The notes beneath the pieces were generated by a model. That model was not told where the DNA came from and ran no database searches. It worked only from the letters and a program-made list of their open reading frames with translations. Made by a program: the position numbers and the translations under genes. This document shows positions 12,198-58,379 of a DNA stretch of 64,000 bases, piece by piece. This DNA comes from Candidatus Hermodarchaeota archaeon. GTDB lineage: Archaea > Asgardarchaeota > Hermodarchaeia > Hermodarchaeales > Hermodarchaeaceae. The DNA lies in contig JAEOTO010000003.1 in assembly GCA_016839805.1 (NCBI GenBank), positions 1-64,000 of the forward strand, given 5' to 3'. Position 1 is the stretch's first letter. Every line of letters begins with the position of its first letter.

Positions 12198-12563
12198 TTA
12201 GCCAGCGGGAGCTGGTCCCGGCTGACCAAGCATTCCGCGGAGTGTTTCTTGAAGCGAGTCGAACTGTTTTCGTAATTGGCCTTCTTGCTTTTCCAGTGAT
12301 TTTACGCGAACCCCAAGCGATTCACTTTGCTCACTTAGAGCCTTTGTGGCCTTTTGCTTGGTCGTTTTAAAGAGCAATGGTCCAGAAGCCTGATAGATTA
12401 CGCTCTTCGCGGCAAGGCCCTTAACTTGTTCAAGTGCGTTATTAGTTTCAGCTAATTGTTGCTTAACTTGGACGAGAAGGGCAGTTACATATTGTAGACT
12501 ATCTCGTGTTTGCTGAACTCGAACGAGTTGCTGGCGGACACGAGGGGGAAGCTCTTCACCCAT
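12198..12563 (-). CDS. pfdB: Prefoldin beta subunit
   Basis: 121 residues. The protein is almost entirely two long heptad-repeat helices (RVRQQLVRVQQTRDSLQYV and LGVRVKSLEKQEGQLRKQF) joined by a beta-hairpin region around VYQASGPLLFKTT. This is the layout of the beta subunits that make the tentacles of the hexameric chaperone. Prefoldin passes unfolded proteins to the thermosome. The gene overlaps pcc1 by 8 bp, a common arrangement at the end of the archaeal exosome superoperon. The C-terminus ends in a short Pro/Gly tail. Confidence 0.93.
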   Translation of the reverse strand: MGEELPPRVRQQLVRVQQTRDSLQYVTALLVQVKQQLAETNNALEQVKGLAAKSVIYQASGPLLFKTTKQKATKALSEQSESLGVRVKSLEKQEGQLRKQFDSLQETLRGMLGQPGPAPAG

Positions 12564-12855
12564 TTTTTTTCACCATGAATTGGTGTACACCATCAGCCAC
12601 GGTATACAAACGCATGAGCGATGTAGCGGCGGCGCGAAGGGCCGTAACGTCTGTGGCAGCGAGGTGAAACACGATTTGATTCTGATTAGAGTTAACCAAA
12701 AGCCTAACTCTTTTTGAATCTATCGACGCGAATTCTGGTTCCAGTGCGGCGAGTAATGTACCAAGGGTTCGAGGTGATTCGGTATCCAGTGTAATCGTTA
12801 GAGTGAAAGGACGGTGTAGTTTGGTGTCTGAGGAAAGGTCAGTTGGTGTTACCAT
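12556..12855 (-). CDS. pcc1: KEOPS complex subunit Pcc1
   Basis: 99 residues. It matches the small dimeric Pcc1 fold: an N-terminal beta strand (FTLTITLDTESPRTLGTLLAAL), then the RVRLLVNSNQNQIVFHLAA hairpin, then TALRAAATSLMRLYTVAD, the conserved helix that pairs with Kae1. Pcc1 is the dimerisation platform of KEOPS, which makes t6A37 in tRNA. The gene overlaps both neighbours by a few bases. Placement between prefoldin beta and the Brix gene is the usual one in archaea. Confidence 0.9.
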   Translation of the reverse strand: MVTPTDLSSDTKLHRPFTLTITLDTESPRTLGTLLAALEPEFASIDSKRVRLLVNSNQNQIVFHLAATDVTALRAAATSLMRLYTVADGVHQFMVKKNG

Positions 12856-13409
12856 CGCTTTTGATCCCCCATGGATCGTGTCAAGAAATGTTTTATTGCT
12901 AGTGATGGTCCCAGTGGTTGTTTCTCATCAGGAGACAAAAAATCTATCGATTTGAATCGAACATAACTAATACGTAATATGGCAAAATTACCTTTCAAAT
13001 CGAGGAGGCTTTCACGGTTTGTTAATGGTACTTCTAAGGCATGGGCTAACATTTCCGCTTTACCCTTATCACGTGAATTAGTTGGAACTACATACAATTT
13101 TTTGATTTTCCGAGGTGGCTCAATGTGATATTCTCTGAGTAAGCGTGTTGATTTGATGATAATGGTAGGGGGTTGAAACTCCCAGCTTTCACCCGTAAAT
13201 CGTAAGAAACCTAAGCGACCTGGGTTGCCATGAAAGGCACCTACCAGAAGAATTCGTGTCGCTCCGAGGTCTTGTGCCGTCTCACAAAATTCTTCAAAAC
13301 CCTGTTTTCCGCGTGTTAGACGGGTTGAGTTAGGAAGAACCCGATTCAGTTCCTTAATGAAGCTTCGGATTCGTTGTGTGGGTTTGCGAGTAGTCCCGAT
13401 GATGATCAC
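12849..13409 (-). CDS. Brix-domain ribosome biogenesis protein
   Basis: 186 residues that correspond to one Brix domain, the archaeal version of the Imp4/Rpf/Brx family. It opens with [16 protein letters not shown], followed by [31 protein letters not shown] and the basic RKIKKLYVV segment. Eukaryotic relatives bind rRNA during early subunit assembly, so a nucleolar-type rRNA folding role is expected here. The start is GTG, overlapping the TGA of eL43 by 4 bp (GTGA), and the end overlaps pcc1. Both overlaps point to tight co-translation. Confidence 0.92.
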
Positions 13410-19927: not shown

Positions 19928-20386
19928 CTAAATGAGATTGAACTTTTGACATTGTTTTTGTAGTTCACTGAGTTGGGGTTTCCTACCCGAGAACCGAACC
20001 ACTAAGCGAAGAGAATCGCCTCGATTAACTAAGCGCAGTTGTCCCTGATAAGATTCCTGTTTGTCAAATCGCAGAAAAAGTTGTCCCTTTTGATCAACTC
20101 GGTTTTCAAAGGTTAAAGCAAGTTTTGCTCGTTCTTCAGGCGGAAGACGTTGTCCAATCGAGTACAAGGCCTCTTTAACTGCTGTTCGCTGAGTTAATCG
20201 TGTTTCAATGTGGATTATCGGGTTATGGTAATATCCTCTCAGTTTTTTTTGTTTAAATGAGAGTGAGTCACGTATCTGTTGAGGGAAAAGCTTTTCGACA
20301 GCAGTTTTAACTTTCATTTCATCTTCTGTAGCTTGCACTAGTGCGTGGACAGTGATGCTGGACGGCTCCCGTTCCATTGTGGACAC
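19928..20386 (-). CDS. COG1325-type RNA-binding protein (predicted exosome-associated)
   Basis: 152 residues. The sequence SSITVHALVQATEDEMKVKTA and RGYYHNPIIHIETRLTQR match the short archaeal COG1325 family, related in fold to uL5-like RNA-binding domains. It is found beside Rpp30/Pop5 and eL15 in many archaea and was predicted from context to act with the exosome. The C-terminal part is basic (VVRFSGRKPQLSELQKQC). Biochemical function is not established. It sits between eL15 and Rpp30 with spacings of 35 and 12 nt. Confidence 0.85.
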   Translation of the reverse strand: MSTMEREPSSITVHALVQATEDEMKVKTAVEKLFPQQIRDSLSFKQKKLRGYYHNPIIHIETRLTQRTAVKEALYSIGQRLPPEERAKLALTFENRVDQKGQLFLRFDKQESYQGQLRLVNRGDSLRLVVRFSGRKPQLSELQKQCQKFNLI

Positions 20387-20421
20387 AGGCTCGTCACATC
20401 CTCCTAATAATTTTGGGGCGT

Positions 20422-20997
20422 TTATTTGCCACGCCGACCATACTTTCTGATACTTGGGCGAAGTTTCTCTGCTCCAGTGCCACGATGCCGCAGACCTCGT
20501 GATGTTTTTCCTGATGGAGTTAAACCACGGAAGACTCGACCCTTCTGAGTAGAATCACAAATCCAGTTAATCCGTTGATCAGCTTGAATAGCAGGATGAG
20601 CCGGATCAACAAGAATAATTTCGTACCAGAGATTTTTCCCGTCCTCAGCGATATAGTACGACCCAAGAACTCGGAGATTGGGATACTTGCGTGAAGTACG
20701 TTCCTCAGCAATCCATTGACGGCTACGACTGGGTGTTATTTTGACTGTTCCCATTTTCTTTGGTTTTCGACCCATTGTTGGTCGTGGTTTGCGACGGGAA
20801 CCGCGAGTCACTCGTTGGCGTACTACAATAAAACCTTGTTTAGCCCTATAGCCAATTTGTCGAGCGCGATCTATGCGAGTGGGGCGATTTATGCGATGAG
20901 TTGCAGGTTCTTTCCGCCACTCGATGAGCCGCGAACGAATCAAGGCTTTCAACTCTTTATCATGGCTAGCATAGAGCTCGCCAATATGTTTGTACAT
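20422..20997 (-). CDS. rpl15e: Large ribosomal subunit protein eL15
   Basis: 191 residues, the usual length. YKHIGELYASHD at the N-terminus, RPTRIDRARQIGYRAKQGF, the VTRGSRRKPRPTMGRKPKK block and NLRVLGSYYIAEDGKNLWYE are all family signatures. The C-terminus has TSRGLRHRGTGAEKLRPS. It binds 23S rRNA and is shared by archaea and eukaryotes. It is the first gene of the eL15-COG1325-Rpp30-Pop5 transcript. Confidence 0.97.
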   Translation of the reverse strand: MYKHIGELYASHDKELKALIRSRLIEWRKEPATHRINRPTRIDRARQIGYRAKQGFIVVRQRVTRGSRRKPRPTMGRKPKKMGTVKITPSRSRQWIAEERTSRKYPNLRVLGSYYIAEDGKNLWYEIILVDPAHPAIQADQRINWICDSTQKGRVFRGLTPSGKTSRGLRHRGTGAEKLRPSIRKYGRRGK

Positions 20998-21061
20998 TGA
21001 TGTAGACGCCTCCGCGTGTAAGGGATAGCGAACCGCTATTGCATATAAAATTGTTATGCTG

Positions 21062-21994
21062 CTACTTGAGAAGAGCTATCAGCTTCTCAGCGATGACCAT
21101 AGAATTTGCCCGGGATGCTTCACTGGTTTGTGCACCAACATGAGGAGTAGACACCACATTAGGCAGGGCTATAAGTTTCTTAAGATGCGCATTCTCAAAG
21201 GGAGGTTCTTCGGAGAAAACATCAAGCCCTGCTCCCCCAAGATGCCCATCGACAAGGCCTTGGTAAAGAGCCTTCTCATCAACAACCCCACCTCTCGCCG
21301 TATTAATCAGAATTGCACCCTTTGGCAAAGCATTAATTTCATTAGTTCCGATAAGTCCCCGCGTTTTGGGAGTTAAGGGTACATGCACTGTAAACACATC
21401 AGACATTGTAACAAGCTCATCCGAAGGTAGATATTTTACACCTAATTGTTTCATTACATCGATTCGTTCGGGAAGAATATCAAAAGCATAAACGGACATT
21501 TCAAATGCCAAAGCACGTTTCGCAACTTCTTCGCCGATGAACCCAAATCCCCATATTCCTAATCGTCGTCCACGAAGTTCGCCACCTTTGCTGGCTTTTT
21601 TCAACCACTCACCCTGCCGCATACCCTGATCACCAAAGGCAACACGACGTAGTACACTCAAAGTTAACGCAAAAACCAACTCAGCAACTGAAACCGAGGG
21701 CCCCTCAGGGGAATTAATGACTTGGATCCCTTTCTCTAAAGCAAAGCCTCGGTCAACATTATCCAAGCCCACACCCGCCCGAGCAATTACCTTAAGAGAG
21801 CTTCCTGCAGTAATCACTTCTTGTGTGACTGTTGTGCGACCTCGGACAATTATTACATCAAACTCGCCAATTGACTCAATCAATTCTTCAGGAGCAATGT
21901 CGGTTCGAAGCACGAGGTCGAAGCCTTCGTTCTGGAGTTGTTCTATTGCATCCTCATGGATGGGATCAGCCACCAATATACGACCCTTAGCCAT
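21062..21994 (-). CDS. serA: D-isomer-specific 2-hydroxyacid dehydrogenase, 3-phosphoglycerate dehydrogenase-like
   Basis: 310 residues from ATG 21994, which has GGTGA 5 nt upstream; the longer frame to 22075 lacks a ribosome site. NAD-binding motif GIWGFGFIGEEVAKRA, catalytic arginine in NTARGGVVDEKAL, glutamate in DVFSEEPP and histidine in TPHVGAQT are in the right order. RAGVGLDNVD is typical of SerA. It lacks the C-terminal ACT domain, so it is the short form. It probably oxidises 3-phosphoglycerate in serine synthesis, but other 2-hydroxyacids are possible. It is divergent from the YchF-like gene. Confidence 0.88.
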   Translation of the reverse strand: MAKGRILVADPIHEDAIEQLQNEGFDLVLRTDIAPEELIESIGEFDVIIVRGRTTVTQEVITAGSSLKVIARAGVGLDNVDRGFALEKGIQVINSPEGPSVSVAELVFALTLSVLRRVAFGDQGMRQGEWLKKASKGGELRGRRLGIWGFGFIGEEVAKRALAFEMSVYAFDILPERIDVMKQLGVKYLPSDELVTMSDVFTVHVPLTPKTRGLIGTNEINALPKGAILINTARGGVVDEKALYQGLVDGHLGGAGLDVFSEEPPFENAHLKKLIALPNVVSTPHVGAQTSEASRANSMVIAEKLIALLK

Positions 21995-25527: not shown

Positions 25528-25812
25528 CTAGTCGGTGGATAATTGAAGGAGGGAGTGAAGAGAAGGTGATTCCACAGCGATCCGTCCTTTCATAGATTCG
25601 AGCTCTGCGAGGAACTCTCGCAAGACCTTTGCACGTTTGAAGACGCGGACAATACCTAGTTCGGTGATACGCAATACTGCCAAACGATTCATGACCTCTA
25701 CATAAATGCCGCCAAGATACAAATCATGTTTCAGAAAGATGCGCCGCCCGGTTTCATTCTCTGCATTTCGGGCTTTCCAAAACCCTTGCCGCTGGAGTGT
25801 TCGAGCAAACAT
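25528..25812 (-). CDS. Small hypothetical protein
   Basis: 94 residues. I do not recognise it. The middle part, FLKHDLYLGGIYVEVMNRL followed by VLRITELGIVRVFKRAKVL, looks like real folded beta-alpha sequence, and the C-terminus is a short Ser/Leu helix. A GAGGG motif lies 12 nt before the ATG. No homologue or partner is suggested by the neighbourhood, which is a sparse 740-bp gap between the radical SAM gene and eS1. It could be a lineage-specific gene or a chance frame. Confidence 0.45.
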   Translation of the reverse strand: MFARTLQRQGFWKARNAENETGRRIFLKHDLYLGGIYVEVMNRLAVLRITELGIVRVFKRAKVLREFLAELESMKGRIAVESPSLHSLLQLSTD

Positions 25813-26114
25813 ACTAGCCAGACCCTCGCTAGTAGGCGTATTAATTGCTAATAAGGCTTACCGGTTCGCTTTTCCATAAAACCGTTTTAAGTCGGTTTGA
25901 TTTTGAACGAAAGTTATTAGATAAACAATAGCTTTCAAACCTCATTAAAAAGCAGAACACCGGAATTCAAGGTTGCATAAAAACCTGCTATTATCTGGAT
26001 AATATGCGCGCGCATAAAGGAGGTATTATCACCTCTTCGTAGTATTTGAATTAGTAGAAGAATAATGCTATCAATTCTTTTACAATTGATTACGCATGAA
26101 AAAAAATTGAGGTG
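25813..26114. other. AT-rich intergenic region with perfect palindrome
   Basis: 302 bp without a convincing gene. It contains the 14-bp perfect palindrome TATGCGCGCGCATA at 26003-26016 in an otherwise AT-rich context. A GAGGT/ACCTC short hairpin lies directly after it (26020-26035). A 12-codon frame starts inside the palindrome on plus and is unlikely to be real. Confidence 0.5.
26003..26016. repeat. 14-bp perfect palindrome
   Basis: TATGCGCGCGCATA reads the same on both strands. The CG-alternating core stands out against flanks that are mostly A and T. It may be a protein-binding site or a Z-DNA-prone element downstream of eS1. No regulator is linked to it. Confidence 0.5.
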
Positions 26115-29425: not shown

Positions 29426-30070
29426 TCACCCTATACGTTCTGTTATGTATCGTCCTCGGCTTTCGATCGCATTTACCTTTTGAAAGATTTCAGCGGCACC
29501 TTTTCCATAGGTGGCTAAATAACCTTTTTTGAATGCGTTATAGGAATCTTCCCAATAAGTAAAATGTGTGCTCTGGAGGGCTTGTTTGAGTAGATGTAAG
29601 TCAGTGCCAAAATCTTCGATGTTCTGAGTGTATGCAGCGAGACCAAAATCGATGAAATAAATACCGATTTGAGAATGTATTAGCATGTTAGATGTGGTCA
29701 AATCGCCATGCGTTATTTGATTTTGGTGCAAGCGTGCAACCGAGTTACCAATTTTCCGAAATATCTTTTGACGTTTTGCAGAAGGCAATTCGGGTAAGGA
29801 TTCCTTCAAACGTTTATTTGAAATAAATTCCATAACGATGGTCGCTGTATTCAAGTCGATGTTAAATACAATTGGAGTTGGAACGCCTGCACTCCGAGCA
29901 GCTGATAGTAGACGCGCTTCGCGGACTGTTCGTTGGTTACGGATTGAAGCGTCTATCTGTGGAAGGCGATAGCGCTTCGGGAGGCGATGTTTACGAATGA
30001 CTTGGAATCCGTACCAGTTTTCTAAGTAAAGGCACGCTTCTGCTCCCTTAGCGATGAGTTTTGATGAAAT
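29426..30070 (-). CDS. bud32: KEOPS kinase Bud32, with non-canonical ATT start
   Basis: 214 residues when started at the ATT codon at 30070..30068. Conserved parts are the KGAEA nucleotide loop (8-12), the lysine of VIRK (27), the helix glutamate of REARLL (51), HGDLTTSN with the catalytic aspartate (123), and IDFGLA (DFG, 141). No ATG, GTG or TTG exists between the upstream TGA and the nucleotide loop. The first canonical codon (TTG 29854) would remove the loop and the lysine. GGAGG stands 8 nt before ATT and 5 nt before the preceding ATC. The frame is identical to that of Kae1, separated by TGA only, so this is either an independently initiated protein or the second half of a Kae1-Bud32 fusion. 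It is the atypical kinase/ATPase that drives KEOPS. Confidence 0.88.
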   Translation of the reverse strand: MSSKLIAKGAEACLYLENWYGFQVIRKHRLPKRYRLPQIDASIRNQRTVREARLLSAARSAGVPTPIVFNIDLNTATIVMEFISNKRLKESLPELPSAKRQKIFRKIGNSVARLHQNQITHGDLTTSNMLIHSQIGIYFIDFGLAAYTQNIEDFGTDLHLLKQALQSTHFTYWEDSYNAFKKGYLATYGKGAAEIFQKVNAIESRGRYITERIG

Positions 30071-30073
30071 GAT

Positions 30074-31060
30074 TCAAACCTCCCAAGGTATGTCTACTTG
30101 GTCAAGACGCCATTTTGGTAGAATAGTGCTTTCTGATAGTGGAATGGATTTTCTGGCTTTGAGGAGGAGTAACCCATTGTATGCGATCATCGCCCCGTTG
30201 TCACCTGCATATTGTAAAGGTACGGAGTCAAAGCTAGCTGAATGTTCTGAAGCGACAATTTGAAGCATTTCACCAAGTCGAGCATTAGCTGCTACGCCAC
30301 CAGTAGCGATTACTTCTTCACGTCGCGTATGCGCAAGGGCACGCTCAACAACTTCGGCTACCATTGCAAAAGCCGTTTCTTGAAGGCTATAACAGACAGT
30401 TTCTAACCTAGTACCTTTTGAAAGGAGCCGTTTTGCTGCAGTCAAAAGACCAGAAAATGCCAGATCCATACCCTTAACGGTGTAGGGTAGTTCTTGATAG
30501 TCCCCCGTAGATTGTTGTGCAAGCTTCTCGATTTTAGGTCCACCTGGATGATGAAGCCCGGCTTCTCGAGCAAACATGTCCAGCATATTTCCTAAGGCGA
30601 TATCCAGGGTTTCGCCAAAAATGCGATACCGTCCCGTTTCCAATGTTGTTATCTGGGTATTTCCTCCAGAAAGATATGCAACTAGTGGATTTTTTGCTTG
30701 ACAGAAATATCGAGCCTGTTCGATATGAGCTACACAATGATTGACTCCTAAGAGGGGAATCTTAAGGGCTCCAGCGAGACTCCGGGCTATGACTGCCCCT
30801 ATTCGAAGGGCAGGAGGTAATCCTGGTCCCTGTGAAAAAGCAATTCCCTTAATTTTATCAAGAGGTACCTGAGCTTCTTCGAGGGCTCTTTGAAGGACTG
30901 CGAGGGCGTGTTTTTGGTGGTGCTCTGCCGCTTCGCGAGGATGAATCCCTCCTTCCGATGGTGTATACACTGCTCTAGTCTCCGTGAGAATTTGTCCTTC
31001 TCCATTGACTATACCTATTCCTAGTGTATGGGCAGTGCTTTCAATACCTAAGACGAGCAT
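30074..31060 (-). CDS. kae1: KEOPS catalytic subunit Kae1 (tRNA threonylcarbamoyltransferase)
   Basis: 328 residues. LGIESTAHTLGIGIV at the N-terminus, HPREAAEHH, NHCVAHIEQ (iron histidines), YLSGGNTQI, HHPGGPKIEKL and IATGGVAANARL are the ASKHA/Kae1 signatures. It transfers the threonylcarbamoyl group from TC-AMP to tRNA A37 together with Bud32, Cgi121 and Pcc1. It ends with WRLDQVDIPWEV, close to the point where fused Kae1-Bud32 proteins continue into the kinase. A TGA follows, and then the Bud32 reading frame continues without shift. Confidence 0.97.
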   Translation of the reverse strand: MLVLGIESTAHTLGIGIVNGEGQILTETRAVYTPSEGGIHPREAAEHHQKHALAVLQRALEEAQVPLDKIKGIAFSQGPGLPPALRIGAVIARSLAGALKIPLLGVNHCVAHIEQARYFCQAKNPLVAYLSGGNTQITTLETGRYRIFGETLDIALGNMLDMFAREAGLHHPGGPKIEKLAQQSTGDYQELPYTVKGMDLAFSGLLTAAKRLLSKGTRLETVCYSLQETAFAMVAEVVERALAHTRREEVIATGGVAANARLGEMLQIVASEHSASFDSVPLQYAGDNGAMIAYNGLLLLKARKSIPLSESTILPKWRLDQVDIPWEV

Positions 31061-31142: not shown

Positions 31143-31325
31143 CTATTTTTCTTTCTCTGTTTCTTTCGAAGAGGGTTTAAATTCCGTGAAGCCACAGTTG
31201 CCACAGTGGAAGCGATCCTTATGTTCAGCCATGAAGGTTCCTTCTCCGCAGCGTGGACAAGAACGGCGTTTGCGTTCAAGTTTACCGTCCTTTCCCTGTG
31301 AATAATATTGGTGTGGTTTTGACGT
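31143..31325 (-). CDS. rps27ae: Small ribosomal subunit protein eS31 (S27Ae), probable ACG start
   Basis: 60 residues if started at the ACG at 31325..31323. The protein is a C4 zinc ribbon: [20 protein letters not shown] then GNCGFTEF, preceded by [15 protein letters not shown]. The frame is closed by a TGA at 31334, and the only codons between it and the family core are ATA, CCA, ACG, TCA and so on. None is ATG, GTG or TTG. GGTGA ends 6 nt before ACG, the spacing used by neighbouring genes, whereas ATA would touch the motif. The first ATG lies after the first zinc-binding pair and cannot be the start. The gene sits between eS24 and Kae1, its usual place. Confidence 0.85.
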
Positions 31326-32661: not shown

Positions 32662-33270
32662 TTATTTTTTCTTTGTTTGATCTTTTCCTTCTTTCTTTTT
32701 CTCAGCTTTTCGCTTAGAGTCCAGGAGTTTCGCGATTTCTTCTTTTATCCATTCCAACTTACCTAGAAAAGGCTGTCGCATTGTCAGTCCTAATTTCCCA
32801 CTGCGTGCGCCGCCATCAATACTTACGGCAACAATGCGTGTTCGGACTAGATCACCTTCTGTTATTCTCCGACCGGTTTCTTTACCAACGAGTGCAGCAC
32901 TTCGGGGATCGTAGGAGAAGAAATCATCAGTGATTTGACTTACGTGACATAGCCCATCAAGGGGACCCAGTCGGATGAAAGCCCCAAAATCGACGACTTC
33001 AACCACCTCCCCTTGAGCAAGGAAATTTACTTTGGGTTCGAAGGTAAGAATGGTGAGGTTTACATCATGGTAGGTGGCACCATCACCGGGAATGATTTTT
33101 CCAACACCGATATTGAGGACTTCGGTGACAGCAATAATAAATCCGAGGTCTACATCGATGATGCCTTCATATTGTTCTCGGAGTATCTCCTCAGCGACCT
33201 CGTAGAGGTCTTCGTTAAATCGATTTGGCGGAATGCGCACATGCCCTTTAATGGTAACAGCTTGGTAGAT
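32662..33270 (-). CDS. rpoE: RNA polymerase subunit RpoE (Rpb7), ATC start
   Basis: 202 residues when started at ATC 33270..33268. The expected first ten residues of archaeal Rpb7 (pattern M-Y-K-L-V-T-x4 before VRIPP) align exactly with this ATC codon followed by YQAVTIKGH. Between the upstream TAA and the GTG of VRIPP there is no ATG, GTG or TTG, and starting at that GTG would delete the first strand. GGAGG lies 7 nt before ATC. Downstream are an N-terminal tip domain (RFNEDLYEVAEEILREQYEG) and an S1 domain (VVEVVDFGAFIRLGPLDGL). A Lys-rich tail ends the protein. It forms the stalk of RNA polymerase with RpoF. Confidence 0.93.
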   Translation of the reverse strand: MYQAVTIKGHVRIPPNRFNEDLYEVAEEILREQYEGIIDVDLGFIIAVTEVLNIGVGKIIPGDGATYHDVNLTILTFEPKVNFLAQGEVVEVVDFGAFIRLGPLDGLCHVSQITDDFFSYDPRSAALVGKETGRRITEGDLVRTRIVAVSIDGGARSGKLGLTMRQPFLGKLEWIKEEIAKLLDSKRKAEKKKEGKDQTKKK

Positions 33271-49999: not shown

Positions 50000-52675
50000 T
50001 TAAGACTTACGTTTCCAGGCTGGAGGATAGGTTCCAGCAGGGATTACAACTCGCATTGTTTTTGCCACTATTCCCGAAGAAGCTTTGAGTATTTGTTGCG
50101 TTGATTGTTGCGCTATTGCCAAAGCAACGAGCTCAGTTTTAATGGTTAGAATAGCAACGGTATCTCCCGGTTTTATGTCATCATGGAGTTGCAGCACACC
50201 TGCCACAGCTAGGTTGGCACCATGGCATAATGCATCGACTGCTGTGTCTCGAATTACAATTTGAGGCAGGTGAGCCACGCCATCCTCCAAAGGGTGTAGA
50301 ATCAGACGGAGAGGTTGCTGGTCTTTCTCCTCTTGCCAGAAATGATAGGCATCGACTACATCATAGAGAGTTGCTAAGGTGGAATCTTCTTTGAAGGGTC
50401 CGGTTCGAGTGCGGCGAAGTTCAGCCATATGAGCTCCACCCCCAAGAGCTTCTCCAATATCATAGCAATTGCTTACAAACGCAGCACCATTCAATGCAAA
50501 ATTATGATGCTGGTTTACGGTTATATCATAGACATAATCGAAATCTGCAGTTGTTTTTTCAACCGCTTTGATTTCGTCCAGAAAGTATTTTGCATTTACT
50601 TGATTTTTCAATGCAATTAGGTCGAAATCGTTCTTAGGCACTACTTTTTGTAATGATTTGACTATTTTTGATAAAATCAGTCTGGTTGGTCTTTTACCTG
50701 TCAATAGTTGATTAAATGCTCCTCCTCTGTAAATTGAATTTTTTGATAACCCATATTGCTGAATTAAATTTTTGATATGGGTTACGCATGATATGGGCAT
50801 TAAGTCTTGTGAGCCATATGATTTGTATCGTGAAAAACGTGTTTCAAATTGCTTAATCTTTTTTTGTTTCTTAGGGTGTTTACATTTCATTAATTGGGAA
50901 AACCGAATTTTGTCAAAAGGCGATTTAATTATCACATGGTATTTTGGAGTTTTTCCACTCTCATCAAAGGTTGAACCTAGTCTTTCATATATCTTTGAAC
51001 GTATTCCAAGGCGTTTTAGTAGTAGAGCTAGTTGAACTGCAATATGATAAAAAGCTGTGTCGTATGCGATCTCTGTGTAAGGTGAATTCGTTTTAATAGT
51101 AACTGTTCCATCGCCATCAAAGTATCCTGACATGAAGTTTGAAATCATATCTTTTGAGAGAGAAGAAAGGTTTTCTAAATGCATAGTTTTCTTTGGACTC
51201 ATAATTCCAAGTTTTTTCGCAATGCCTGCAAGAACGGGATTATTTACCGTCACAAGAAATGTTCCAGAGATTTCTGATTGTCGAATGCTAGTTGCTGGAA
51301 AGAACCGATTTACTGTTTTAATGAAATATTGAATGAGTTTACTTTCTTGGTTGGTAAAAATTACCCTCGTAGGTCGTATGCATTTCTTTTCTTGGACCAC
51401 ACTACCATCAGACGCCACCAAACCTAGTAAGAATAGAAGTTCGGAATTAATTTTCTTCTCTGAAATTGAATAGTAAGCACCTCTCTCGCCTTTGAACGCT
51501 TCAACCATCTCGCAAACTGAAGTCCAATCTAGTCTAGTTTCCTCACAAACTTGGCGAAGATACTTAATTCGAATACCCATTCCTGTTTGGAGAAAGACTC
51601 GCCTGTCTATTCCAAGAATCCTACAGGCTTTTGTTACACTGCCAAACGCTTCTGAAAGGAATTTCTTGCATTGTTTTTTCAGTTCGTTTCCAAGGCAAAG
51701 GAAGTCCTGATCTAAAAGCTCTAGAAGATATGGGATTTTCTCATTTTTTTGAGTTAATTCTCGGGGGCTGAAAAGAAAGTTTCCTGGAACGATGTCTTCT
51801 GCATCTTTCAATAAAGGACCTTTGATATCATCAACTAGTATTTCATGGTCAGGAGTAACTTGGAGTCTAAGACCCGAATCAAGTTTGAGCCTGACCATTT
51901 CAGAAGGCGCTGGTAATTTTTGGACTGCGGTGATGGAGGAAGATTCAAGTTTGTGGTCGTGAAGATTTAAAGAAAGTGTCTCCAAAAATCCCAAATCTAA
52001 TTTATTGGAATTAGAAGAATCCAACCTTGAATCAACGACCTTCGAGATTTGGTGGAGACCTCCATTTTGTAAAAAGAGAAAAGAAGAGGGAGAAACACAT
52101 AACTTTCTGATGTAGGTTCCAGCTTGACAGCCGACGCGAAATAAGACGTTTTTCTCTTCAATTTCTAAGATATGTATGTAGTAGATTTGACGCGTACGAA
52201 CACGCCGTTTTACTGAGGAGCGAACAGGAGGTCGTTGATAAATCGTTCCTACAAACTCTGCTGCAACCTCACGAATTTTATCTGGAGATTCCTCTTGATG
52301 GAGCCGCATAACACAGACGTATTCTTTACCCGATGTAAGGAGTGCATTAGCAATTTTGGTGGAATTTCCAAGCATAACGGGAAGCACACCAGTGACCTGA
52401 GGGTCCAATGTTCCTGCGTGACCTGCTCGATCTAGACGTAGAATACGTTTTACCCAGGACACTACTTCATGGCTAGTCGGCCCAGGAGGCTTTTCTGGGC
52501 TTGTAAAAGGTCAATAACCTCTTAAAGGCAAGCTATCCAGATTGATGATCCCATCCCGAAATAACTCAGGAATGGTTCGCTCCTGTGGAACACGACCATA
52601 AGCCGGATTCGTAGTATCCTCGGCACGCGTTACCAGTTTCCGTTTCTTATCTGCAGGCAGCCGCGGCTTTGTCAC
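50000..52675 (-). CDS. cbf5: H/ACA pseudouridine synthase Cbf5, split by an mRNA intron and carrying an intein
   Basis: Coding parts are 52675..52535 and 52492..50000. The start is GTG 52675 with GGAGGT 7 nt upstream. Exon 1 encodes 47 residues ending ...IINLD; exon 2 continues [18 protein letters not shown]. The catalytic aspartate is D77 in [11 protein letters not shown]. After residues AGTYIRKL the 544-residue intein (179-722) interrupts the protein, and the C-extein resumes with [20 protein letters not shown]. The PUA domain ends the protein. The precursor has 877 residues and spliced Cbf5 would have 333, the normal size. It isomerises uridines guided by H/ACA RNAs with Nop10, Gar1 and L7Ae. 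Unspliced RNA would stop at a TGA after 54 codons. Confidence 0.96.
50468..52099 (-). mobile_element. LAGLIDADG intein in Cbf5 (544 residues)
   Basis: The intein starts with Cys ([14 protein letters not shown]) and ends with [13 protein letters not shown] before the extein Cys, the classical C-terminal splice block with the terminal Asn. Block B is at about residue 83 ([10 protein letters not shown]-x-x-H). The homing endonuclease has two dodecapeptides, [12 protein letters not shown] near residue 225 and [12 protein letters not shown] near 328, each with its catalytic acid. A helix-turn-helix-like segment ([18 protein letters not shown]) and a second one near the C-terminus ([17 protein letters not shown]) may aid DNA binding. 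All splicing residues look intact, so it should be active. Confidence 0.95.
52493..52534 (-). other. Archaeal mRNA intron in cbf5 (42 nt) with bulge-helix-bulge
   Basis: Exon 1 ends ...CTGGAT and exon 2 starts AAGCCT. CTGG (52540-52537) pairs with CCAG (52498-52495) as the 4-bp central helix. Bulges are ATA (52536-52534) and AAA (52494-52492). GCTTG (52533-52529) pairs with CAAGC (52503-52499) as inner helix. Cleavage after the second nucleotide of each bulge, as tRNA endonuclease does, removes 42 nt and joins GAT to AAG, giving INLDKPPG. The in-frame TGA is inside the excised part. The outer helix is weak. Confidence 0.93.
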
Positions 52676-56613: not shown

Positions 56614-57285
56614 TCAGGTCTTGGATTTACCTTTTGTAGCTGTCGCTCGTTTAGTTTTTGGTTTGGTAGTCATACTTTTTTTAGCAGATTTGGCTTTGGG
56701 AGTGGTTTTTCTTGATTTTGTTGTTGGTGTGGTCTTTGGTTTAGCTTTGACCTTGGTCTTAGACTTAACCTTCGGTTTTCTTTTAGCCTTCGGCTTGGGT
56801 TCTGGTTTAGGTTGTAGTGAGGGAGCCGGGTGTTTGGTTGGCTCCTGGATTTTTCCTTTCGTACTACCTCCCGCCGCCTTAATTTTTTCAGCTGCCCGAT
56901 GAGTGAAGAGTTGAGCCGTCACTGCTAAGGGAATAGTGATTGTTCCAGTCCCCATGACCTTATCGTAACCGTGTTCGGTTAGGTTAATGGAAATGGGGGC
57001 ACCCTTTGCTGGAGGTTTCCCCTCAGTAAATTTCGGTAGATTCCGCACAATGTCTTTAATGTTGATGATCTGAAATGATTGGCGAAGTTTTGTTGGTCGA
57101 CTGAACCCGTGTTTTCCAAATCGGTCAGGGTCCTTTGCTGTTACATAGGTCCAATCGTGCTTTTTTCCGCCGGTTTTACCTTTGCCACCACGTTGACCGC
57201 CTTTTCGATGTTGACCAACACGACCGTATCCGTGACTTCGGCTGCCACGGCGTTGACGGACCCGTTTCGGTTTACGTACTACCAT
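56614..57285 (-). CDS. rpl15: Large ribosomal subunit protein uL15 with long basic tail
   Basis: 223 residues. RQRRGSRSHGYGRVGQHRKG, GKTGGKKHDWTYV, RFGKHGFSRP and PLAVTAQLFTHRAAEKIKAA are the core, which ends near residue 143. The last ~80 residues are a Lys/Pro/Thr-rich tail (KAKRKPKVKSKTKVKAKP), absent from typical archaeal uL15 of ~145 residues. It follows the small heat-shock gene by 19 nt. Confidence 0.97.
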   Translation of the reverse strand: MVVRKPKRVRQRRGSRSHGYGRVGQHRKGGQRGGKGKTGGKKHDWTYVTAKDPDRFGKHGFSRPTKLRQSFQIINIKDIVRNLPKFTEGKPPAKGAPISINLTEHGYDKVMGTGTITIPLAVTAQLFTHRAAEKIKAAGGSTKGKIQEPTKHPAPSLQPKPEPKPKAKRKPKVKSKTKVKAKPKTTPTTKSRKTTPKAKSAKKSMTTKPKTKRATATKGKSKT

Positions 57286-57304
57286 AATTATTCGCTCCTG
57301 ATGT

Positions 57305-57847
57305 TTACCGTTTTTTGAGTTGGATCTCTAGGATTCCATTATTGTAGGTTGTTTTTACTGAATTTTTGTCAACTGCTGCAGGAAGATCAAGATCTTTAGC
57401 ATACTTGCGATCAGAACTGGCAACTTGAATTGTAACACTGTAATCCTCGACTTTGACTTGTAGGTCATCTTCCTTAACTCCAGGTAGTTCGGCTAAGATG
57501 ATGATGTCGTTATCCTGTTCCATTACATCAATCATGGGTTCACGTTCTTCTCGAACTACAGGAGGTGCACCTTCAGGGTTGAGGTTACCAAAGGGATTCA
57601 GTCGCATTTTCCCATCTGGTCCGAGTGCAGCAGAAAATCCCCATACCATTGGATTCTTTTGTAGGTGTTTTAGGATTTCTTCAAATTGATTCTGTGCATC
57701 GGGCCCAAAGAGTTCTTCAGGGTCGGTTTCTGAGAACATTTTCATGATTTCTTCGAACATCTGTTGTATGGCTTCGAACTGCATGTTGAATGAGTCGTCA
57801 TCCCACCAACGTTTGCGTTTCTTTCGATCTTCTTCCTCTGAGGGCAA
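57305..57847 (-). CDS. hsp20: Small heat-shock protein (Hsp20/alpha-crystallin)
   Basis: 180 residues from TTG 57847; an ATG at residue 22 is the only later alternative. The N-terminal ~95 residues are variable (KRKRWWDDDSFNMQFEAIQQ, MFEEIMKMFSE). The alpha-crystallin domain runs from PMIDVMEQDNDIIILAELPG to the end, with GVKEDDLQVKVEDYSVTIQV and YNNGILEIQLKKR. It lacks the usual C-terminal I-x-I extension. It binds unfolding proteins. The position between uL30 and uL15 inside the spc-like operon is unusual and suggests co-expression with the ribosome. Confidence 0.93.
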   Translation of the reverse strand: MPSEEEDRKKRKRWWDDDSFNMQFEAIQQMFEEIMKMFSETDPEELFGPDAQNQFEEILKHLQKNPMVWGFSAALGPDGKMRLNPFGNLNPEGAPPVVREEREPMIDVMEQDNDIIILAELPGVKEDDLQVKVEDYSVTIQVASSDRKYAKDLDLPAAVDKNSVKTTYNNGILEIQLKKR

Positions 57848-57884
57848 TTTTAATCCAACCTTTCTTAGTAATAGTAATTTTCCT

Positions 57885-58379
57885 TCATGACATCCGTTGT
57901 ACTAAGGTGTTGATATCGGTTCCTCGATATCCTAGTTCTCCTTTCTGTTGAAATGTGTGTTTAATACTCCCTTTGAATCCCTTCGATGGAGGGCGTAATC
58001 GGAAGACTTTCTTCAATTTGGGAAGTGTAGAAATTTCAGCTTTTAATGACACGATAGCTGCAGCATATTCGTCCACAGTCTTGAATTTGGTATACTTAGC
58101 TACGTACTCGTCGGTAACTCGTTTATCTCCTCTAAGTCTGCCACGTTTGCGTAAGAGCTTTGTTAATGTAGGGACATCTAGTTCTCCCCATGTGATAGCA
58201 TCTTTGGCTTTTTGTAGCATCCCCAGATATGAGGGGCGCTTATCAATAACCACTGCATGATTAACCCGAGATAGACTTAGCTGGGATAAAGTCTCCTTAG
58301 ATTCTTGGCGTAGTCCGATACCACTCCGAATTCGAACGACTATCATGGGCGTATTCGAGTCCTTGGATTCTTCCGACAT
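57885..58379 (-). CDS. rpl30: Large ribosomal subunit protein uL30
   Basis: 164 residues, the archaeal/eukaryotic long form. IVVRIRSGIGLRQESKETLS, LSRVNHAVVIDKRPSYLGML, KDAITWGELDVPTLTKLLRK and RLRPPSKGFKGSIKHTFQQK are signatures. It lies 1 nt downstream of uS5. Confidence 0.97.
   Translation of the reverse strand: MSEESKDSNTPMIVVRIRSGIGLRQESKETLSQLSLSRVNHAVVIDKRPSYLGMLQKAKDAITWGELDVPTLTKLLRKRGRLRGDKRVTDEYVAKYTKFKTVDEYAAAIVSLKAEISTLPKLKKVFRLRPPSKGFKGSIKHTFQQKGELGYRGTDINTLVQRMS

Follow-up and report, generated by a model that had tools for sequence, protein, structure and literature searches.

In the window analyzed here (the whole 64,000-nucleotide stretch of Hermodarchaeota DNA), kae1 and bud32 are split genes, and the sequence evidence makes it very probable that bud32 is initiated at an ATT codon, as one case of near-cognate starts in a few core genes of these Asgard archaea. 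The unusual starts appear to be a genuine trait of this group and not the mark of a broken or misread gene.

The kae1-bud32 junction

Translation of the minus strand from 31060 to 29426 gave Kae1, ending in ...DIPWEV, then a TGA at 30076-30074 and, continuing without a frame change as far as the 29426 stop, IISSKLIAKGAEACLYLENW..., which bears out the claim of an earlier, sequence-only reading that kae1 and bud32 occupy one frame with a TGA alone between them; with that TGA in place, the two are not one uninterrupted frame. The kae1 gene (KEOPS t6A transferase; 30074-31060, minus strand) begins with ATG at 31060 and is complete against TIGR03722 (E 8.7e-144), and bud32 (KEOPS kinase/ATPase; 29426-30070, minus strand), with a proposed start at ATT 30070-30068 and a predicted protein beginning M-SSKLIAKGAEA..., is complete against TIGR03724 (E 2.8e-67). 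The latter match scored 226 bits (curated cut-off, 125) and placed residues 10-209 on profile positions 1-192, which is the whole domain. The AKGAEA nucleotide loop (Bud32 codons 8-13), HGDLTTSN and DFG are invariant in alignment A1, i.e., the loop and the catalytic motifs are intact.

The codons that follow the kae1 stop are ATC ATT TCA TCA AAA CTC ATC GCT AAG GGA GCA GAA, and the earliest ATG, GTG or TTG in the bud32 frame is TTG 29854, which is codon 74 and lies well past the nucleotide loop. Hence the same reading was correct in stating that none of these codons precedes the loop. We read the bud32 5' ends of roughly 190 archaeal loci, most of them Asgard and a few of them duplicates, and found that, true Kae1-Bud32 fusions aside, only the window and one other locus (L028) have no ATG, GTG or TTG close to this loop. 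L028, on contig C32 of genome G030 from another Asgard family, likewise has a bud32 lacking a normal start (AAGGTGTAAGAA ATC GCT AGC); its region reads TAA GAA ATC GCT AGC AAA TTA ATT, and the ATC is located exactly 8 nt from the Shine-Dalgarno sequence.

Comparison of bud32 codons 4-73 with the nearest relative (L002) gave pS of 0.90 and pN of 0.17, so that synonymous differences were about fivefold denser, and for the two alternative frames the pattern was reversed (pS ~0.2, pN ~0.38). Because AKGAEA is invariant and codons 4-73 are under selection, translation must enter at one of the first two codons or very near them. A short Bud32 beginning at TTG 29854 was rejected: such a protein would be without the invariant loop, and purifying selection acts on the codons ahead of the TTG. 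A missing 5' mini-exon, which came into question because cbf5 in the same window looks intron-split, was rejected as unnecessary, given that the relatives carry a start codon at the corresponding site.

Stops, frames and starts in the family

Seven genomes of the family, Hermodarchaeota, hold the gene, including that of the window (G000); locus L048 (isolate YT1_014) and G007 represent one locus. In all seven genomes kae1 and bud32 are split, with kae1 stopping at TGA, TAA or TAG; G000 and G003 alone have bud32 in frame with kae1, and the remaining five have it in a different frame. It had been suggested that relatives be compared for TGA versus a sense codon at this stop; the comparison revealed no fused family member.

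These results bear on two alternatives that the sequence-only reading had listed. The first is read-through of the TGA (to which selenocysteine insertion can be joined), yielding a Kae1-Bud32 fusion protein, which would fit the common frame and the TGA standing alone between the genes, and selenocysteine machinery has been reported across Asgard archaea (PMC9723677). However, a common frame is ordinary, being found in 8 of 24 kae1-bud32 pairs, exactly the one third that is expected, and the relatives have varied stops and bud32 genes that are mostly in another frame with starts of their own. Furthermore, the ATT has a suitably spaced Shine-Dalgarno sequence ahead of it, and no tRNA-Sec scored above the cut-off in this (incomplete) genome; ARAGORN classed four of the five weak hits as ordinary tRNAs. 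We therefore regard read-through as highly improbable. The second alternative, a former Kae1-Bud32 fusion that was split by one mutation, draws on the existence of such fusions (PRK09605/NF007174 family), which share both domains and their order. Fusions do occur in other Asgard genomes: we read one at L030 (genome G038), open frames of 570-627 aa occur in further members of that family, and L097 and L114 have long continuous frames too. In contrast to these fusions, the window has two genes with a stop and a Shine-Dalgarno sequence, and it contains nothing like the linker of ~65 residues in L030. Given also that every family member with the gene is split, five of them with bud32 out of the kae1 frame, descent from a fusion by a single mutation is hardly credible.

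Split genes with a separate start for bud32 are the preferred reading. In each of the six other family members bud32 has a normal start. The codon aligned with the window ATT is GTG in G003, ATT in G001, CTG in G002, ATG in G007, ACG in G006 and ACT in G005; it is thus ATG or one base off in six of the seven family members (chance ~1e-4, calculated post hoc). At the next codon the six relatives all have ATG, and the window has TCA; the window has thus lost an ATG that the others keep, and conversion of that ATG to TCA takes three changes. Within the family, dependence of bud32 on a non-canonical start is confined to the window's genome.

Probable near-cognate starts and Shine-Dalgarno spacing in the operon

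In a census that compared ~90 ORFs of the window (a number of spurious ones included) with the syntenic contigs of G001-G003, only bud32, rpS27ae and rpo7, all of the same operon, ended up lacking a usable normal start. Six further candidates (19928-20554, 20422-21075, 12556-12924, 25528-25857, 56614-57327 and 57305-57901) were dropped after a usable ATG, GTG or TTG was found. For rpS27ae (31143-31325, minus strand; Pfam Ribosomal_S27), the proposed start is ACG at 31325-31323, preceded by AGGTGA at 31337-31332. ACG is found at this start in six of the seven family genomes (G000, G001, G002, G003, G005 and G006) and ATG at the same site in G007; the sequence that follows AGGTGA is variable, yet ACG stays at the start site.

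The proposed start of rpo7 (rpoE'; 32662-33270, minus strand; Pfam SHS2_Rpb7-N and S1) is ATC at 33270-33268, 7 nt from GGAGG at 33282-33278. The six family members checked have near-cognate codons at this site, namely ATC in G000-G003, ATT in G005 and CTG in G007; in G002 an ATG is also present two codons upstream, right against GGAGG. Across 71 distinct rpo7 loci, which are not phylogenetically independent, the codon before the conserved Tyr/Phe was ATG in 32, TTG in 13, GTG in 12, ATT in 8, ATC in 4, ATA in 2 and any other codon in none. Outside the family, ATT with AGGAGG exactly 8 nt upstream was found in L284, L285, L296, L310 and L311, which represent several Asgard families, and in all of these except L284 a stop codon was noted just ahead of the ATT. 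The loci L316, L101 and L109 are ambiguous, with an open frame or a TTG upstream. The near-cognate counts for rpo7 cannot be explained by sequencing error. In L303, the rpo7 start is ATA.

G000 and G002 were also sampled at random in 20-kb pieces; these shared only 42 ORFs and gave no further near-cognate case. A scan of 400 long ORFs gave few other candidates and added no clear case.

The rpS27ae and rpo7 results also bear on the simplest alternative for bud32, namely that bud32 is ordinary and that its true ATG (or GTG) at 30070-30068 is hidden by a mistake in sequencing or assembly or by a rare allele. ATT is a single base away from ATG, G007 and G003 have ATG and GTG, respectively, at this position, and reliance on ATT with no subsequent ATG is seen in one genome only, a MAG of 86.7% estimated completeness. 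Errors cannot, however, account for two other operon genes that have no normal start in several species simultaneously, ATT also occupies the aligned position in G001, and the downstream ATG of the relatives has been replaced by TCA via three changes. We consider an error or rare allele unlikely and favor ATT as the genuine codon.

The spacing of the Shine-Dalgarno sequence is consistent with this choice. GGAGGT (30078-30083, minus strand) lies in the last kae1 codons, 8 nt ahead of the ATT at 30068-30070; the sequence-only reading had noted that GGAGG (30083-30079) overlaps the kae1 end at this distance, and both its coordinates and the distance are correct. Since a 16S gene was not found in the window's genome, the anti-Shine-Dalgarno sequence was taken from G002, a genus mate, and two other Asgard genomes. 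The 3' end of their 16S rRNA is GGATCACCTCCT, and GGAGGT at 30083-30078 is therefore a perfect six-base match. Spacing was counted from the final G of GGAGG, with the rpo7 starts of the phylum, which are fixed by homology, as the reference. The commonest spacing for rpo7 was 8 nt, both among canonical starts with a Shine-Dalgarno sequence (24 of 50) and among near-cognate starts (7 of 14), and all 14 of the latter were at 7-9 nt.

Initiation at either ATT or ATC had been put forward in the earlier reading. ATC (30071-30073), directly after the TGA, is likewise one base from ATG and is the codon that rpo7 uses in this genus, but it lies just 5 nt from GGAGG, versus the modal 8, and the codon aligned with it in relatives is not generally start-like, making ATC a very unlikely start for bud32. 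The ATT part of the proposal holds up, by the Shine-Dalgarno register, the homologous site in relatives and the two further near-cognate starts of the operon. As an aside, the 16S rRNA gene of the genus mate (L040, on G002 contig C71) is spread over 3.6 kb and is hence probably interrupted by introns.

Proposed initiation at ATT, precedents and possible meaning

In the mechanism that we propose, Kae1 and Bud32 would be made as separate proteins from one operon mRNA. The ribosome would terminate at the kae1 TGA, GGAGGT in the final kae1 codons would hold or recruit the small subunit, and Met-tRNAi would start bud32 at AUU, 3 nt after the stop, to give Met-Ser-Ser-Lys-Leu-Ile-Ala-Lys-Gly-Ala-Glu-Ala. 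The most economical account would be ordinary Shine-Dalgarno-guided initiation at a near-cognate codon, from a set comprising AUU, AUC, ACG and CUG, probably aided in the case of bud32 by ribosomes that have just terminated. We infer from the sequence the use of AUU in vivo, the insertion of methionine and a contribution of reinitiation or coupling. The presence of aIF1, which selects against non-canonical start codons, counts against this account, as do the reliance on ATT in a single incomplete genome, the single base that separates ATT from ATG and the scarcity of other candidates among the 400 long ORFs scanned; because aIF1 is present, its loss is not the reason for the near-cognate starts.

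Termination-reinitiation has been linked to gene pairs at distances of -8 to +10 nt, among which genes for subunits of complexes are overrepresented (PMC10666635). The bud32 ATT, 3 nt beyond the kae1 stop, is inside this range, so termination-reinitiation can feed bud32. The pair resembles those studied in Haloferax and E. coli (PMC10666635) in its very short distance (+3 nt) and in encoding subunits of one complex, and differs from them in lacking a -4 or -1 overlap and in having a non-canonical start codon.

The infC gene of E. coli, which encodes IF3, starts with AUU. Like bud32, it is a translation-related gene with a non-canonical start; unlike bud32, it is bacterial and tied to discrimination by IF3, whereas initiation of the archaeal bud32 would involve aIF1/aIF2 and Met-tRNAi. 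In Streptomyces, a GTC start of sigR is repressed by IF3 (PMC5472188). An ATT start was inferred from sequence by the authors for the Asgard tubulin gene atubA, with a ribosome binding site at a plausible distance, as for bud32; however, atubA is a single gene of a different family, and in the text of that report we came across no wider survey of genes or species (PMC13394414). Reviews of archaea name AUG, GUG and UUG as start codons (PMC7531240) or describe non-canonical events as shown only for elongation and termination (PMC8211752). Our search for literature on Asgard archaea and non-canonical starts, which had subscription journals mostly outside its reach, found nothing. Since AUU starts are known from infC and one Asgard tubulin, and no Asgard report of other such starts was found, we view the present case as a variant within a known phenomenon.

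Conserved ACG, AUC and AUU starts of genes for a ribosomal protein, an RNA polymerase subunit and KEOPS would show relaxed, eukaryote-like near-cognate initiation in the archaea most closely related to eukaryotes. Such genes would be truncated or missed by standard gene callers; for example, bud32 called from the TTG is 142 aa long instead of ~214.

Kae1 and Bud32 make t6A. In yeast, t6A was reported to restrict initiation to AUG, and its loss nearly doubled initiation at non-AUG starts (PMC4717488). We therefore considered whether the near-cognate starts of the KEOPS-carrying operon might act as a feedback device, by analogy with infC, where AUU serves IF3 in this way in bacteria. If the Asgard initiator tRNA carries t6A, a drop in KEOPS activity would increase initiation of bud32 at AUU (as well as of rpS27ae at ACG and rpo7 at AUC), and KEOPS would be restored. 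Against this idea, bud32 and rpo7 are ~68 kb apart in G185, where the rpo7 start is still ATT. Feedback seems decidedly unlikely.

At L222:15674-16144 (G000 contig C5), an EVE-domain-like frame has TAG where Trp seems to be expected (MANWLCPIDEAN*GIILENRVWG), which may represent a nonsense mutation, an error or recoding; given this point nonsense, single-base problems may exist in this assembly. In cbf5 (50000-52540, minus strand), ~42 nt with an in-frame stop near the 5' end, after GIINLD (around 52534-52493), look like a short archaeal pre-mRNA intron. The same gene contains an intein with a LAGLIDADG endonuclease at about residues 168-666.
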